From: Amoebophrya sp. AT5.2
Lineage: Eukaryota > Sar > Dinophyceae > Syndiniales > Amoebophryaceae
Reading direction: 5' to 3'
Length of the DNA: 23,039 nt
Assembly: GCA_005223375.1 (NCBI GenBank)
Contig: RXOD01004392.1
Span: 1-23,039 of the forward strand
Shown here piece by piece: positions 4,889-22,579 of this stretch. Numbering within the stretch: position 1 is the stretch's first letter; each line of letters opens with the position of its first letter. The notes under the pieces are model-generated. The model saw nothing but the letters and a program-made list of their open reading frames with translations, was not told where the DNA came from and did not search any database. The position numbers and the translations under genes were made by a program.

Positions 4889-7184
4889 ATGGCAGCGGTG
4901 ATAGCGAATCAGCCGGTCGTAATCGACAACGGCTCCGGCGTGATGAAGGCGGGGATTGCGGGCGACGAGGCCCCGAAGTGCGTGTTTCCCAATTACGTCG
5001 GCAGGCCAAAGCACGAGCGCGCCATGGCCGGGGCCGCGGAAGGCGAAATCTTCATCGGGGACAGCGCGACCCACTTGAGAGGCCTGCTGACGTGCAACTA
5101 TCCGGTGCAACACGGAGTGGTCGAGGACTGGCTCGAGATGGAGCAGATATGGCACCACGTACTAACTCATGCTTTTTTTCGTCTGATATTTTCAACATGC
5201 CACAGCAACCTCTGTCCCTGTCCGACCTGTTCACCGCCGCATCATAACTACGTACGAGATTCAAACGCTGCTTTCATCGATCAGGTCTACAACGAGATGA
5301 AGATTGCGTCCGAGGAACACCCGGTCCTTCTGACCGAGGCGCCGCTGAATCCGGCGCGGAACCGCGAGAAGGCCGCGGAAGTTTTTTTTGAGAGCTTCAA
5401 CACACCGGCATTGTTTGTGAGCGCTCAAGCCATCCTCTTATGGTCGGACCAGCTGGTAACGGTAAGTGTCAAAACAAGTGGTAATGTGGAATTGGGGACC
5501 GGGTCTCCGGTGTGCCTTCGTGTGTCCTGGAAAAAACATCTGCAGTAGGTGTAGAAAGGCGGCGTTCCGCCTGGTCGGCTGTTCTTGCGCCTCTGTCTCC
5601 TGCTTCTTCTGCAGCCCCAGCCTACAGCTGACAATAGACCGACGCACCAGGCTCTTGTTTTTGCAGCCTCGTTTTCAGGCGGCCCTATCGCCATGTCTTG
5701 TCACTACGACTACGGTTTCCCTCTACCACCTCCTCCCAAGAATTCATTGCTCGGAGGAGGATTCATTCTCGCAGCATCTCACTTTTACAACCAGTCGAGT
5801 CCTCTGCCACTTGACTTCCATCAACCTCCAGCTGATCCGTTCATACCTCTCTCTGTACGCTTCCGGGCGGACAACGGGCGTGGTGTTGGACTCTGGAGAC
5901 GGCGTCTCGCACGTCGTCCCCGTGTACGAGGGCTTCGCTCTCGGTCACGCGATCCAGCGAATGGACGTGGCTGGCAGGGACGTCACAGACTCGCTGGTGC
6001 TGCAGCTGCGAAGGCAGGGACACGTGTTCCACACAAGCGCCGAAAGAGAAATCGTACTACGCCTTGGCAATTAATTTAGTTTGTTTTCAATACGGTTCGT
6101 TCGGTTCAGTTTCAGATGAGCGTCGATCAGCACCACCTTCGGATGTATGATGCCACTTCTGCACTTCGCGTGCTCGTCTGCGTAGTCGTGGTAGAGGTAG
6201 TTCCATGGTTGTACTAAACTCCACTTTATTTTGTTTCTTGTACGCATTGATGAAAACTGAAATGACAGGTCCGCGAGATGAAAGAGCGTGTGTGCTATGT
6301 GGCGTTCAATCCGGTAAAGGAGGAGACGAGTCCCGAAAACCAACCAACCGTTTACAAACTTCCTGATGGGCAGACCATCAATCTCTCCGCCGAACGCTTC
6401 CGCGCACCCGAAATTCTGTTTCAGCCGAACTTAGTTGGGCTCGAGTACCCAGGAGTGCACGAACACCTCTTCACGGCGATAAGTACAATTCATTTGTTTG
6501 TAGTCATACTCATATCTGATTTTTTTTAAATGAAAATTTAATTTGGGGCACGTACGATGAGGAAAATTTTTTTCGGCCTGCCCGTTATTTTCCACCGACG
6601 TCAGCGTCTATTTATACAAAAATAAATTCGACATCGACAGATCGCAGCGACCTGGATTTACGCAAGACCTTGTACTCGCAGATTGTGCTCTCGGGCGGCA
6701 GCACCATGTTTACTGGCTACGGAGACCGACTGCTCAACGAAATGCGGAAACTCGTGCCGAAGGATTGTACCGCTTGTTTCGTTTTTTCAATGATACTACG
6801 ATAGAATAAGACAGACGTTTTTTATAATTGAAAAACAGTTTGGTGGGGCACTCCTGTATTAAGGCTCCACGCGGATTGGAGCAGATGGTGAAGGTTACTC
6901 CTGGGCCGGTGATCCATGACGCAATGACGGATTGAATGAAAAACAGTTTGGTTTTGACCGACATCAAGGTGAGTCCTCCGTGTGCTGCGTGCCCCCGCAT
7001 CATTATCATTCGTAACATCATCGCTGCAGGTAAAATCCGAATATCGGCCCCGCCAAGTCGTCAGCTCTCCACGTGGACCGGAGGCAGCATTCTGGCGAGT
7101 CTTGCGACTTTCAAGACGATGTGGGTATCGCGCGAAGAGTACGATGAGGAAGGGCCCGGCGTGATGCACCGCAAAACTTTCTGA
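4889..7184 (+). CDS. ARP1: Actin-related protein 1 (centractin), dynactin filament subunit
   Basis: Exons 4889-5158, 5285-5438, 5851-6053, 6269-6482, 6641-6766 and 7030-7184 give 373 residues, against about 376 for animal centractin, colinear throughout. Diagnostic stretches are [14 protein letters not shown] (phosphate loop 1), [37 protein letters not shown] (phosphate loop 2), [35 protein letters not shown] and the terminal MHRKTF. The IANQPV start, VGRPKH and HRKTF ending separate Arp1 from conventional actin. Arp1 forms the short filament of dynactin, which links dynein to cargo. Introns 1, 3, 4 and 5 are GT-CAG (126, 215, 158 and 263 nt). Intron 2 is a 407-bp introner plus one 5-bp duplication, and only its precise non-GT-AG removal restores [11 protein letters not shown]. 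At the exon 5/6 join, PKDCKIRIS carries Cys where animals have Val. Confidence 0.96.
5434..5438. repeat. Target-site duplication, left copy (CCTCT)
   Basis: CCTCT immediately precedes the TATG start of the ARP1 introner and recurs directly after its CATA end at 5846-5850. Keeping one copy gives GCC ATC CTC TCT CTG TAC, the conserved AILSLY of actins. Confidence 0.8.
5439..5845. mobile_element. Introner element (407 bp) forming intron 2 of ARP1
   Basis: The left end TATGGTCGGACCAGCTGG and the reverse complement of the right end TATGAACGGATCAGCTGG match at 15 of 18 bases, forming terminal inverted repeats. The element is bracketed by the direct repeat CCTCT. It sits between codons of the most conserved actin-fold helix (QAIL / SLYASGR), so it must be spliced out. 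The excised unit (element plus one CCTCT, 412 nt) begins TA or CC and ends TA or CT depending on register, never GT-AG. The interior shows no transposase-like frame, so it would be a non-autonomous, MITE-like insertion. Confidence 0.85.
5846..5850. repeat. Target-site duplication, right copy (CCTCT)
   Basis: Direct partner of 5434-5438, directly after the CATA terminus of the introner. Exon 3 of ARP1 is taken to begin at 5851, using the left copy as coding; splicing at any register within the repeat gives the same mRNA. Confidence 0.8.
6829..6844. repeat. 16-bp direct repeat, copy 1, inside ARP1 intron 5
   Basis: TGAAAAACAGTTTGGT recurs without mismatch at 6937-6952, 108 bp downstream in the same intron. 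Each copy carries an ACAG that could act as an acceptor. Confidence 0.85.
6937..6952. repeat. 16-bp direct repeat, copy 2, inside ARP1 intron 5
   Basis: Perfect second copy of the repeat at 6829-6844. It is followed at 6969 by an unused consensus donor, GTGAGT, so 6947-6968 could be a 22-nt cassette exon. Inclusion would shift the ARP1 frame. Confidence 0.85.
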
Positions 7185-8039
7185 CGAACGAGGGCCAGGA
7201 GCGTCGAGAATCAGCTCCTTTGACGACTGCGAAGCTTGTTCTCACGAACGACTGCTAGTTGCCCAATCCAAGATCAAGTTCGAGCATTTTCTAAACCGGT
7301 ACAGCGCTTATCACATTTCTGAGCGAGGCAGAAGTAGACCCTTCGGACCACATTCAAAGAAATGTTGGGTCCGTGGTTGTCTTCAGCTCCTCAAATTATT
7401 CTGCAGACTGACAGATGAATGCACGTTTCTGAGCTCTGATGCTGATTGTCAATGCGCTTCACAGAATCGCAGCCAGTAGCGATGCCCAAAATGAATCGAT
7501 GAGAATGCTGGCCAGTCGCCTGATCATGGGGCGACCCTCTTTTTTTATCTTTTTCTCATCCTCATCGCATGCGCATCGAACCGCTCATATTCATTAGGAT
7601 TAGTTTTAGTTCGCGTTGCAGAGTCCAACTCCAAGCGCGACAGCGTACTCCTTGTTCCATAATCCATAAATTTGGCTGACACCAAACTCGAATTTCGCTT
7701 CCGTTCTTCGTGCTGATCAAACAAGGGACCGTGCATCGGAATCGTTCTGAGGTGGACGAGGAGCGTCAGCGTCTATAGGATATTGCAACTATATGCCCAT
7801 CATGTTTTACATGATCTCTGATCAATGCATGAATATGGATACTCATACATGTTCCTCTTTGTTCACCGCATACTTTACAACTAAGACCACGACTCCTGAA
7901 ATCCAGTTCCAGGTCTACTGTTCATTTTCAGTTCTGGCTGCACGACCAACTCTAACGTGAAAGCAACCTTACCTATAGCTACTATCGGCATCTCAGGTTG
8001 TCGCATAGCTGTAGAAACACCCCTTCAGCGACCAAACCC
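7185..8039. other. Intergenic region between ARP1 and LSM8
   Basis: No supported gene on either strand. The sequence is of mixed composition with several short T runs (near 7540-7560). The last part contains TTCAG at 8024-8028, 11 nt before the LSM8 start, a candidate trans-splice acceptor. No tRNA-like cloverleaf or snRNA motif was recognised. Confidence 0.6.
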
Positions 8040-8327
8040 ATGGCCCTTCTCGAGGATTTCGCGGAGGCGAAGGTCTCTGTGCTAACGAACGACGGAAAGT
8101 ACTTCGTGGGGATACTATCAGGGTTCGACCAAGCCACGAACGTGATCCTCACGCAGTGCGAAGAGCGGGTGTACCATGCGGATGCAGAGGGCGAGAAGCT
8201 CTATATGGGCTTGTACGTCATCCGCGGTGACACGATCGCGATGGTGTCAGAAATAGACGAAAAAACGGACGATCAAATCGACGTCGAAACGATCAGAGCA
8301 GCACCCATGAAACCAGTGGTCCATTGA
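8040..8327 (+). CDS. LSM8: U6 snRNA-associated Sm-like protein Lsm8
   Basis: An intronless frame of 95 residues, the normal Lsm8 length (about 96). The Sm1 motif reads GKYFVGILSGFDQATNVIL (about 19-37) and the Sm2 motif GLYVIRGDTIAMV (about 56-68), with the Arg-Gly-Asp that shapes the RNA-binding pocket. The lead-in MALLEDF and the tail following EIDE (DVETIRAAP) resemble other Lsm8 proteins and not Lsm1. Lsm8 defines the nuclear Lsm2-8 ring, which binds the 3' oligo-U of U6 snRNA and supports splicing. The frame stays open upstream to about 7998, but ATG 8040 (CCCATGGCC) matches the family start. The 3' flank holds AATAAA at about 8766. Confidence 0.95.
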   Translation: MALLEDFAEAKVSVLTNDGKYFVGILSGFDQATNVILTQCEERVYHADAEGEKLYMGLYVIRGDTIAMVSEIDEKTDDQIDVETIRAAPMKPVVH

Positions 8328-19205: not shown

Positions 19206-20252
19206 ACACTGTTTAACGTCCATCTTCATCATCTCATATTTTTATTTTTTTGCTCTACCATCAGCTTTTTATCGTATCATGAGTGTAGTAGGCGTGAGCA
19301 GTCACTCCCGCTTTCCGCCTGCATGATCAAGGTAAAAAATTTTTAAGATGAATCTAAATTCGAAGCCATCAAGTAAAATGTAAATGTCGAAAAAGAAGTG
19401 TGAAAGCCGAACAACTGACGTGATGAAAAGTTAGCCGCTATAATTTTAGCGCCAGCTGCAGGAACAGCAACAGTGCCACGACTCCACACTCCAACTCCTT
19501 CTTGTTTCCATTGAATTGATAAACGTCCAAACGCAAACGCCTTCGAAACTGTAATACCAACGACAACGTCGAGAAAGAATGAACGCTTACAAGTACAACG
19601 AACGCATTTTAGTCACCAATGACACGTCGCAACTTTCTGGAAAACTAACACATCCAGACGTTGACGTGGCCTCCTTGACCTTGGTCCCACTTGCATAGAA
19701 AGCAAAACGAAATTCGAAAGTCAAACATGAGACGATCATGACGAACAATGAAAGACTCGATCAACATAAACAAAACACTGGGAGGGGACAAAAAAAAACA
19801 CAGAACACAAGTGACCGCATACCAGTTTCATCGCAGCTTTCGTAGGCACTGTCGCGCAAGCGCATTCGACACAATCTTCACAAGAATTGATTCATATAAA
19901 ACGCAACCAAGACATGAAGATCACGATCGTCGCGCGTTCAAGCTGAAGCACATCCGAGCCGAAAGCCTAGCTCCCCAGGGAGGAGGAGACTGGTCGCGGA
20001 GGATGCCCCACTTCTGCCCGAGTCTTCGATCTTCAAGAAGTCGCGGCGCCATCTTCATCGGTCTTTTTTTTTCTGGCCAAGCAGGCAAAGGAGGCAGTCA
20101 CTCGCTTGTTTGGGTAGTTCGCGTTGGAAGAAGTTTTGGAGGCGCAACTTGGGAGCACTCGCTCCTCACCCTCTCTACTCATAGCATAAGTAAGCAAGTG
20201 CAGCAGCACCAGCGCCGTACTATCACATTCACAATATCAAAGCTAAACAAAG
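19206..20252. other. Intergenic region, 1.05 kb
   Basis: A stopless frame from 19748 runs past 20252, but its content is not gene-like and it enters the phosphatase gene in a wrong frame. The segment from about 19985 to 20085 (MPHFCPSLRSSRSRGAIFIG) could be an N-terminal exon of that phosphatase, but no phase-consistent splice was found. T-rich tracts occur at about 19240 and 20067. No RNA gene or repeat was recognised. Confidence 0.5.
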
Positions 20253-21566
20253 ATGCATCAAGGGTGTCACAACAGTCGTCTTTTTGCAGGCGTATCGCAA
20301 GCAGTTCTGTCTGCCTTGGGTTGTTCCTCTGCATCGACGCCTGCGACGTCGTCGTCCACCCGATACGACGACGAAACACCGACGAGGAAGCTGCGCCTTC
20401 TACACACGAAACCACGACGGAACAGGTTCTCTCCTGTTCCTACTGGGGGAGGAAAAGGAAATGTTCATGGAACGGATGAAGCGCAATCGCAAACGAGCTA
20501 CCTTGTTCAACGTCGAACAGGCTCTGGTGGCACTCTGGTTGCTCCATCAACTTCTCACCACGTGTTCCGTCGGGGCGGACGAGGACATCGGAGCCTGGTA
20601 GCGTGCGAAGATGACCGAAGGCATTTCTCAATCCGGCGGTCGCTTCGGTCACGCAGCTGCTTCACACACGAGAAGATTCACGTTGCGACCGCCGACGCGA
20701 ACTCACCGCCCGAGGACACGTACTCTCTTCGGCGCATGCCGCGGCTCGCAGATGCGGATTCGATCGGCGCCAGTTTTCCCGACGCACCAGCACGCCGTGG
20801 TCTGAAAGACATCTTCTCATGCTCTGGTGGTTCGACTTCGAGCTCGCCTTCGTCTTCATCTAGCACGGGGTCTCTCGATTCGGGAACAAGCCATGTTGAT
20901 GAAGATTGCGTTTCCTTCATATCGGTCTTCGACGGGCACGGTGGCCCCCAGGTGGCGCATTTTGCCGCGGAGAGAATGGGCGAGATGCTGCAACAGAAAC
21001 TCAAGCACAAAGGAGTACGACTAGGACCGGCAGCCAGAACGGGGACAACATCAGTAGACGAGCTTGCCGCTCACCTCCGGGACGCGTACCGTGAGGTCGA
21101 TGCCATGTGCTGGGAGATGTGCTCTCCGTGTTGCGACCTTGGGTTCTCGAATGTCGCACGCGTCGGGTCGTGCGCTGTGTCAGCCGTGCTGACCGAGAAT
21201 GCAGTGGTTGTCGCAAACGTCGGCGATTGCCGGTGTATGCTGGGCAGGAGTAGGACGAATTCGAATACGAAGGAGCACGCAGGAGCGACTGTCCGCTTCG
21301 TCCCCTCGGCGATGGTTCAACACTCCGAGTACAACAGGCTGATGGAGTCGCTTCCGCGCAAGTGGATGACTAGTGCGGGCGGTAGTGTCGAAGGAACGAT
21401 GCTGACAACACTGCACAACGCGAACGATCCGATGGCGAGGGAGATCATGCGCAGGGATTTTCCCGACGACCCAGACGTTGTGCAATGCATCCAGGGCTGG
21501 CAGGACACGGTCACCGGGCAGGTCTCGCGGCTACGGCCGCTGATGGCCACGGGCGGTGGCTTGGGT
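20253..21566 (+). CDS. PPM/PP2C-type protein phosphatase, pyruvate dehydrogenase phosphatase-like, 3' part missing
   Basis: A single open exon gives 438 residues before an introner. The N-terminal 140 residues are basic and Ser/Thr-rich, compatible with a targeting region. Catalytic motifs: ANSPPED (149-155) matches the PDP form of the first metal-binding motif; VFDGHGG (225-231) is the PP2C signature with both metal and glycine positions; RVGSCAVSAVL (about 302-312); ANVGDCRCMLG (about 319-329). LHNANDPMAREIMRRDFPDD corresponds to the DHNAQNE region of PDP, with Leu for the usual Asp. The family's RAFGD motif and the C-terminal DG-WD metal ligand are not found before or after the element. 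A family member should have about 150 more residues. The frame enters the element as YDGTRW and meets TAA. ATG 20253 is the first in frame; an upstream exon is possible. Confidence 0.82.
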
Positions 21567-22058
21567 TATGACGGGACCAGATGGTAAGTGACCAACTGGT
21601 AAGTACTGCGTAACTGGTTCCCTTGGGTGACGAGTGCGTCAAGGCGCTGTGAAGTCTGCCCGGGTGTGAAACACCCGGGCGGTTTCAGAGATGCCTCAGG
21701 CGATGGGGGTAGAGGGCAGATGAGGCTTAGGGCGGGGGGTAGGGTGGGGGGTCCGACGCACGTCGGGAGGGAAGCCGTTGGGAGGTCGGGGGAGGCGGTA
21801 GTGGAAAGCCACGGACTACAATGAATGATGCTCGGGCCTCAAAGCAGGACAAAATATAGCGCCTAGGGTTGCGATTTATTGCCAGCTGCAGGGGGTAGCG
21901 GAGCTGTGGGCGCCCCCATTTTCGCCGAACGCTGTCGCGGGTGGCCGCTTTTCTGCACCTACTGCCAGCCTCTTCTTCGGAGCATCGCCAAAGGGGACCC
22001 CAAAAATAAGCCCCCAGAAATTTCACTTAAGTACCACTCACCATCTGGTCTCGCCATA
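21567..22058. mobile_element. Introner element (492 bp) joining the PP2C gene to an opposite-strand gene
   Basis: The left end TATGACGGGACCAGATGG and the reverse complement of the right end TATGGCGAGACCAGATGG differ at 2 of 18 bases, and both continue into G-T-purine-AGTG. The next block, AACTGGTAAGTACT (about 21594-21607), matches the partial element at 1-81. The flanks GGCTTGGGT and GCAGGCCAGG show no direct repeat, unlike the ARP1 copy. The interior is G-rich from about 21700 to 21800, with a small hairpin CCGGGTGT-GAA-ACACCCGG at 21660-21678; no transposase-like frame is visible. Plus-strand phosphatase coding ends exactly at its left edge, and minus-strand coding ends exactly at its right edge. 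Confidence 0.82.
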
Positions 22059-22546
22059 GCAGGCCAGGGCACGTAGTAACTGTGTTTGCCCCGGTACGGT
22101 CGCCGCCACTCCATCATGTTGTAGGTCCGGTTCGATTTCAGCCTCACCCGCTGGTACCTGATTTGGTAGATGTTCATGCAATCCCACTGATCGAAGCCCG
22201 CCGATTTTGCCACGTCTCGATTCATTTCCACCACGGCCATCTTGGTGCGGCAGAGCGGCAGGATGTGGTCCATGAAGCGCTCCCGCGGGTCTTGTTTCTG
22301 GTAGAAATTCGCGGTCGGCTGCTCGGAAACCTTGGCCAGATAGTTTAGATGTTGGGAGCTGGTGCCGGCGCGGACTGTGAAGAACGCTGTGTTTTGCGCC
22401 CCCGTGCCCGGGTACAAGTCATCGCTGCCGGGCGGGAAGAACTCCGGGGGCACCCAGTATTTGGACTTCTGCATGGGCGACATCAGGTGGTGTGCCACAG
22501 TGTCCTTCTCCGGCCCATAAATTACAGCCGCTACAAAAAAGTGCAT
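22059..22546 (-). CDS. Unknown aromatic-rich protein, partial, cut by the introner
   Basis: An open exon of about 162 codons reads leftward and ends with two leftover bases (PWPA) at the edge of the element. It has good composition: WVPPEFFPPGSDDLYPGTG, YQKQDPRERFMDHIL, CRTKMAVVEMNRDVAKSAG, DQWDCMNIYQIRYQRVRL, YNMMEWRRPYRGKHSYY. It is rich in Tyr, Trp, Arg and Met with no membrane segment. No family was recognised; a mitochondrial-complex or ribosome-associated subunit would fit the composition, but that is only a guess. The first ATG is at 22546. However, the sequence TTTTTTGTAG just inside it looks like an intron end, so the true exon may begin at about 22531 with AVIYGPEKD, and a 5' exon would lie to the right. 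The 3' part of the gene is not beyond the introner, where the phosphatase lies. Confidence 0.55.
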
Positions 22547-22579
22547 CTTTTATTAATTTAAAACATCTTAAAAAAAGGA

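Follow-up and report, generated by a model that had tools for sequence, protein, structure and literature searches.

How does a conserved ARP1 gene yield its message when its coding sequence is broken by what looks like a transposon? The question arises in a 23,039-nucleotide stretch of DNA (the window; contig RXOD01004392.1, positions 1 to 23,039, assembly GCA_005223375.1) from Amoebophrya sp. AT5.2, where the ARP1 transcript unit combines four GT-AG introns with one introner-like element. We consider it likely that this hairpin insert is removed exactly from the ARP1 pre-mRNA, together with one copy of its target site and without GT-AG borders.

The two arms of the insert, 18 nt each and 371 nt apart, are complementary at 15/18 positions, and a 5-bp direct repeat flanks them (Table 1). 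The coordinates and counts that an earlier note on this DNA had given for the inverted repeats, the 5-bp repeat and the 407-bp insert were confirmed. No other place in the window holds an 18-nt inverted pair (≥15/18) with an exact 5-bp flanking repeat over 100–1000 bp, and the layout occurred in 0/60 Markov-resampled windows. Four weaker candidates with inverted repeats and duplication lie elsewhere in the window at 10/12 (shuffles yield 0–3), and an Rfam scan of the window at gathering thresholds gave no match. Removal of the four GT-AG introns, the insert and one CCTCT yields a 373-aa protein whose top PDB relatives are dynactin ARP1 chains (E 6e-166), aligned ungapped across the junction; the restored protein claimed earlier is thus borne out. 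The insertion point lies in a conserved stretch of ARP1 that is gap-free in the alignment after exact removal, whereas retention of the insert shifts the frame and leads to a stop. ARP1 is single in the assembly; next nearest are two actins, with matched pieces 49–61% identical.

Table 1. Coordinates in the window of ARP1 and its insert, of GT-AG paths that would alter the protein, and of further family members.
Feature	Positions	Strand	Basis or remark
Left target-site duplication copy CCTCT, exon side	5434..5438	+	flanking-repeat comparison
Introner-like element in ARP1, 407 bp	5439..5845	+	excision restores ARP1; family in genome
Left terminal inverted repeat TATGGTCGGACCAGCTGG	5439..5456	+	also present with 0 mismatches at other genomic sites
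GTAAGT, 5'-splice-site-like motif just inside left repeat	5462..5467	+	
Right terminal inverted repeat, minus-strand reading TATGAACGGATCAGCTGG	5828..5845	-	
Right target-site duplication copy CCTCT	5846..5850	+	
ARP1 exon 1	4889..5158	+	homology
GT-AG intron of ARP1	5159..5284	+	predicted by homology
ARP1 exon 2	5285..5438	+	3' border ambiguous by 5-bp repeat
ARP1 exon 3	5851..6053	+	
GT-AG intron of ARP1	6054..6268	+	predicted by homology
ARP1 exon 4	6269..6482	+	
GT-AG intron of ARP1	6483..6640	+	predicted by homology
ARP1 exon 5	6641..6766	+	
GT-AG intron of ARP1	6767..7029	+	predicted by homology
ARP1 exon 6 and stop codon	7030..7184	+	
Altered-protein path	GT5456-AG5831		+12 aa
Altered-protein path	GT5462-AG5831		+14 aa
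Altered-protein path	GT5417-AG5831		-1 aa, LIRSY in place of VSAQAI
Second family copy in window	21567..22058	+	flanks unmatched, TGGGT / GCAGG; both end repeats good
End repeat of third family copy, cut by contig start	64..81	-	

The ARP1 insert belongs to a large family. Across the assembly (50.7 Mb, 2759 contigs), the left repeat has 653 matches with up to three mismatches (322 + 331), compared with 34 (9 + 25) for a reversed-pattern control; the search for further copies of the ends that the earlier note had called for returns hundreds, and the outcome it had named as a refutation, ends with no further copy in the genome, did not arise. Complete copies, chosen by at least 4/5 matching flank bases, were extracted from the retrieved loci, initially 28 and, with the search extended to further pattern variants, 42. 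They measure 252–968 bp, the longest being 968 bp, and each of the 42 interiors is related to at least one other (E ≤1e-5; best identity 65–83%, in some over a short part only, and including divergence that predates insertion). The 42 target sites are 42 different 5-bp sequences. Because complete copies were selected on flank match, the fair test of the duplication is a set of 24 repeat pairs picked blind to their flanks: 15 had an exact 5-bp duplication, five matched at 4/5 and four at three positions or fewer, with no exact duplication at any offset of 1 to 4 positions in either direction. The 20 pairs with a recognisable duplication contain five mismatches in 100 positions (five pairs, one each), and some insertions are therefore not new. 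The anatomy of the family is that of a terminal-inverted-repeat DNA transposon with a 5-bp duplication, which upholds the earlier claim of a DNA-transposon-like insertion, and the family is probably a high-copy, non-autonomous transposon of the introner type.

The ends of the copies are distinctive. All of the first 28 copies have TA at both ends, and their ends share TATGGTSGGACCAGVTGGTAAGT; GTAAG lies at positions 15–40 in 43/56 ends, compared with 1/352 interior windows. The right end of the ARP1 copy lacks this inner GTAAG, and the insert, called intact in the earlier note, is therefore not entirely so. Across the 42 copies, positions 5–6 read GT or GC at one end and mostly AA, AC or TC at the other, a difference that may mark left and right transposon ends. 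By eye, GTAAGTG recurs about 15 nt further in in several copies (including L060, L061, L069, L071 and L072) as GGTAAGT..AAGTGGTAAGTG, resembling iterated binding sites. Among 30 first-cut loci, 14 break off less than 200 nt from the repeat with similar inner sequence, as would be expected had assembly halted in near-identical copies.

Exact removal restores reading frames well beyond ARP1. Flanks were joined minus one duplication for the 40 copies whose flanks reach 400 nt or more on each side (those of two of the 42 are shorter), and the exact-excision frame was the best in 34 of them (P 2e-11 with one third as the null expectation). In that frame the stop-free arms of 25/40 copies reach 90 codons or more, compared with 11–13 in the other two frames and 507/1560 cross-joins, and the frame stays open on retention in 0/24 coding copies. 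The sense strand of a coding copy was taken as the strand with the longest stop-free arms; arms of at least 80 codons lie on both strands in L064, L069, L072, L085, L092, L102 and L104, and in L061 a single strand carries two frames of this kind. Host proteins of 16/42 copies were compared with Pfam and of 6/42 with PDB. Besides the Pfam Actin match across the ARP1 junction, matches span the junction in an SPC25 protein (residues 131–236 on profile 8–116, junction at 180) and in a CCDC81 HU2 protein (residues 185–253 on profile 1–68, junction at 198). PDB VPS15 chains align ungapped at the junction of L053 (residue 325), where the Pfam HEAT matches miss the junction. The Helicase_C match of a YprA-like helicase begins at residue 500, right at the junction. 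A CNNM match across the junction of L098 is very weak, below the Pfam cut-off (E 0.0076), and in the PDB comparison reaches E 0.19 with one gapped residue beside the junction; the weak MTHFR match of L085 lies off the junction, L101 had no match in PDB, and the other 10 of the 17 proteins submitted to Pfam matched no family there. L094 and L098, with short right arms (57 and 67 codons), fall outside the 29 coding copies considered below, which are ARP1 and those whose arms reach 80 codons or more.

The borders left by exact removal do not resemble those of ordinary introns. At ARP1, six equivalent registers exist (CC-TA, CT-AC, TC-CC, CT-CT, TT-TC and TA-CT), none of them GT-AG, and exact GT-AG removal in any register is ruled out both there and in 29/29 coding copies. 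A GC-AG or GA-AG register for exact removal was found in 0/29 coding copies, and 24/29 have no AG in their last 24 nt.

The ends are nonetheless able to pair. The repeats pair with each other when the ARP1 insert is folded at minimum energy, the helix closing at 5439/5845, and in predicted folds of the family at least 8/23 end positions pair in register in 40/41 copies, compared with 0/41 when the right end is permuted (one of the 42 was left out on length). Such predicted pairing follows from the inverted repeats and speaks for the possibility of a stem, not its use. Orientation relative to the host gene is about even (11:10 among 21 scorable copies), with no dependence on gene orientation seen; this evenness would be expected if the symmetric ends were being read. 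The TA at both ends, exact excision and indifference to orientation would suit removal from DNA, as for the internal eliminated sequences of ciliates, with an enzyme derived from a transposase acting to make an expressed genome. We know of no two-genome system in this lineage, and the assembled genome still contains the element. Together with the support of comparable Amoebophrya elements as introns by RNA sequencing (RNA-seq; PMC7789003), this renders DNA-level removal extremely improbable, and we return to removal from the pre-mRNA.

Several observations weigh against exact removal without GT-AG. The continuity of frame and protein reflects the state before insertion and, taken alone, is no proof of removal for a single copy. 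It would look the same if ARP1 and the other genes had been knocked out by an unspliced transposon and their flanks merely still appeared intact, and the loci that break off near the repeat are a sign of recent, near-identical copies. Continuity points to removal only for an old insertion or for a gene the cell needs, and both hold in part, because the ARP1 copy is diverged (75–76% alike to its two longest relatives), its ends differ at 3/18 positions, and ARP1 is single in the assembly and intact over six exons. Elsewhere in the family, the two copies of the target site have diverged (one mismatch in each of 5/20 pairs), yet 24 coding copies keep long open arms. A knock-out is accordingly very unlikely.

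A second set of observations concerns GT-AG pairs. The earlier note had claimed that no GT-AG pair restores the protein; this stands for exact removal in all six registers, but in-frame paths exist if the protein may change. At ARP1 several GT-AG paths are in frame and stop-free while altering the protein, three of which are given in Table 1. An exact GT-AG register exists in 3/42 copies, all three among the 13 without a long frame, and the 29 coding copies include one AT-AC and one AT-AG register. Moreover, 16/19 coding copies, ARP1 included, have, when all GT and AG near the borders are combined, a pair that alters the protein length by no more than 2 aa; with so many combinations, pairs of this kind probably arise often by chance. 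The element could be a GT-AG introner whose ends are kept in the mRNA, with GTAAC or GTAAGT in the left repeat as donor and the AG at 5831 as acceptor, lengthening ARP1 by 12 or 14 aa, or with the donor at 5417. GTAAGT is a strong donor-like motif, the form with 12 extra residues still fits Pfam Actin (404.3 bits, compared with 421.9 for the exact form), and Aureococcus is reported to have introners that lengthen the transcript by 12 bp (PMC9860276). This explanation must contend with the conserved ARP1 stretch that is gap-free after exact removal, with the lack of a late AG in most coding copies, and with 6/19 coding copies for which a search up to 120 nt from the right border gave no in-frame path via the repeat's own donor. 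We regard retained ends as unlikely, and exact removal as the better account of the locus.

The remaining points touch the stem and the motif it contains. The whole-insert fold is modestly stable (z -1.75), with 4/100 shuffles as good, and overall the two ends of a copy agree as shuffled ends do (18.29 vs 18.32 of 23). Covariation of the ends as proof of pairing was therefore not found overall, and without an excess of agreement selection on pairing is not supported. Individual positions deviate: the ends agree above expectation at position 15 (27 vs 18.4 of 42, P 0.002) and below it at positions 5 and 6 (10 and 6 of 42 vs 21.0 and 14.7), which may in part reflect ascertainment, copies having been fetched by end searches, or subfamily descent. 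The presence of GTAAG in most ends, finally, hints at some role for U1 or the spliceosome. A U1 RNA model search of the genome gave no match, although the control panel was silent too, so that this is no evidence of absence. U6 RNA had two matches (control panel silent), a U1C-type zinc finger one (the control panel also matched in Escherichia coli) and the U1-70K N-terminal domain one.

We propose the following course of events. A copy of the transposon (introner element) would have inserted in ARP1 and made the 5-bp duplication. The terminal inverted repeats would pair in the pre-mRNA, giving a stem that closes at the two copies of the target site; the stem-loop, along with one of these copies, would be removed, the exons joined exactly without GT-AG borders, and the pre-insertion ARP1 message restored. 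The simplest reading is that the stem-loop would be cut at its base, the exact position being masked by the duplication. We lean towards a mechanism in which the paired ends, and not GT and AG, are recognised. Action on RNA, guidance by a stem and the chemistry involved are what we infer from the DNA, as are the phrases "spliced without GT-AG" and "recognised by its ends" used in the earlier note. A more far-reaching and rather doubtful idea is that of a hairpin-directed, orientation-independent removal system, apart from GT-AG splicing, that would serve hundreds of copies. The ACTTACC of the 3' repeat would then pair with the GGTAAGT of the 5' repeat, either hiding it from U1 or replacing U1 in cis, and the stem base at the target-site duplication would set the cut. 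ACTTACC matches the 5' end of U1 small nuclear RNA in sequence.

Exact removal at ARP1 draws support from its precedent in two other Amoebophrya strains, A25 and A120 (Farhat et al. 2021, PMC7789003). Their genomes contain introns without GT-AG, bounded by inverted repeats of 8–20 nt and direct repeats of 3–5 nt, backed by RNA-seq and grouped in strain-specific families; a similar layout is reported in 1% (A25) and 15% (A120) of canonical introns. The ARP1 family agrees with these introner elements in the length of its inverted repeats (18 nt), in a direct repeat within their range (CCTCT, a 5-bp duplication), in being a repeated family, in non-GT-AG borders (assuming exact excision) and in a hairpin, here predicted, that would bring the exons together. 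The A120 repeats start with TAT, followed by seven less conserved bases and at least three conserved A at the end. Both forms begin with TAT, but the ARP1 family continues GGTSGGACCAGVTGGTAAGT with GGTAAGT and not with a run of A, a trait that belongs to the A120 families and not to the whole kind. No paper was named for this repeat family in titles and abstract openings, which do not show repeat sequences. It is well supported that the insert represents a new family of an already known, Amoebophrya-type non-canonical introner element.

Other known systems are less close. The introners described by Gozashti et al. 2022 (PMC9860276), with GT, GC or GA 5' splice sites, are likewise non-autonomous DNA transposons, with inverted repeats or target-site duplication in many families, that create introns in coding sequence. 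Unlike the ARP1 family, in which the 29 coding copies offer no GT-AG, GC-AG or GA-AG register for exact removal, the examples shown there use splice sites that the element brings with it or that the target site supplies. The nonconventional introns of euglenids (PMC6221363, PMC11170887) have variable non-canonical borders, stand beside ordinary introns and are of suspected transposon origin. They share with the ARP1 family a terminal pairing that draws the two junctions close to each other, which is only predicted here. However, they lack a 5' sequence complementary to U1, whereas GTAAGT stands at 5462 in ARP1 and GTAAG in most family ends. Euglenids are an unrelated lineage, and the CCAGG/CCTG motifs found in both, at other distances from the borders, are probably due to chance. 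Miniature inverted-repeat transposable elements and other non-autonomous DNA transposons with terminal inverted repeats are also short and dispersed, with inverted repeats and a duplication of fixed length; the ARP1-family element differs in being apparently removed from the gene product.

RNA-seq junctions at hairpins with direct repeats could in principle be artefacts of reverse transcriptase. Real, exact removal is favoured because frame, conserved proteins and duplications are evidence independent of the RNA method, whereas the published evidence for non-GT-AG introners consists of RNA-seq junctions. Conserved and single, ARP1 carries four GT-AG introns alongside one element of this kind, which makes it a clean test case. 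If its host lies outside the group of A25 and A120, such elements are more widely spread than the literature says. A 2025 study of Amoebophrya ex Karlodinium (PMC12005148), where introns are mainly GT-AG, proposes that only part of the genus carries the strange elements, and a 2024 review (PMC11453091) repeats the A25 and A120 findings and gives 99.98% GT-AG for the introns of AT5. The G+C content of all fetched loci is 55.5%; published values are 55.92% for AT5, 51.2% for A120 and 47.8% for A25 (table in PMC7789003), and PMC12005148 gives an AT content of 54.5 for AT5. The dinoflagellate spliced-leader sequence has 18 exact matches in the genome and 15 with one mismatch, compared with 0 for the reversed pattern.

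An ancestral intron at the position of the insert was considered as its origin and rejected, as the nearby GT-AG intron of the actins, judged by eye, sits at a different site. The two actin genes adjoin each other (C39:42600-44450, L090; C39:45650-47550, L091), and in both, again by eye, this intron separates IQ from AVMSLYA, its sequence having diverged between the two. In the last ARP1 intron, also by eye, GAAAAACAGTTTGGT occurs twice and a GTGAGT...CTGCAG stretch lies within; it is perhaps a nested or duplicated intron. The unmatched flanks of the second family copy in the window point to ectopic recombination between copies or to a false assembly join; a PP2C frame (20247-21587, plus strand) stops shortly after crossing its left end, and its right end is overrun by a frame on the minus strand (21959-22549). 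A small LSM-domain frame at 7956-8327, LSm8-like by eye, adjoins ARP1.

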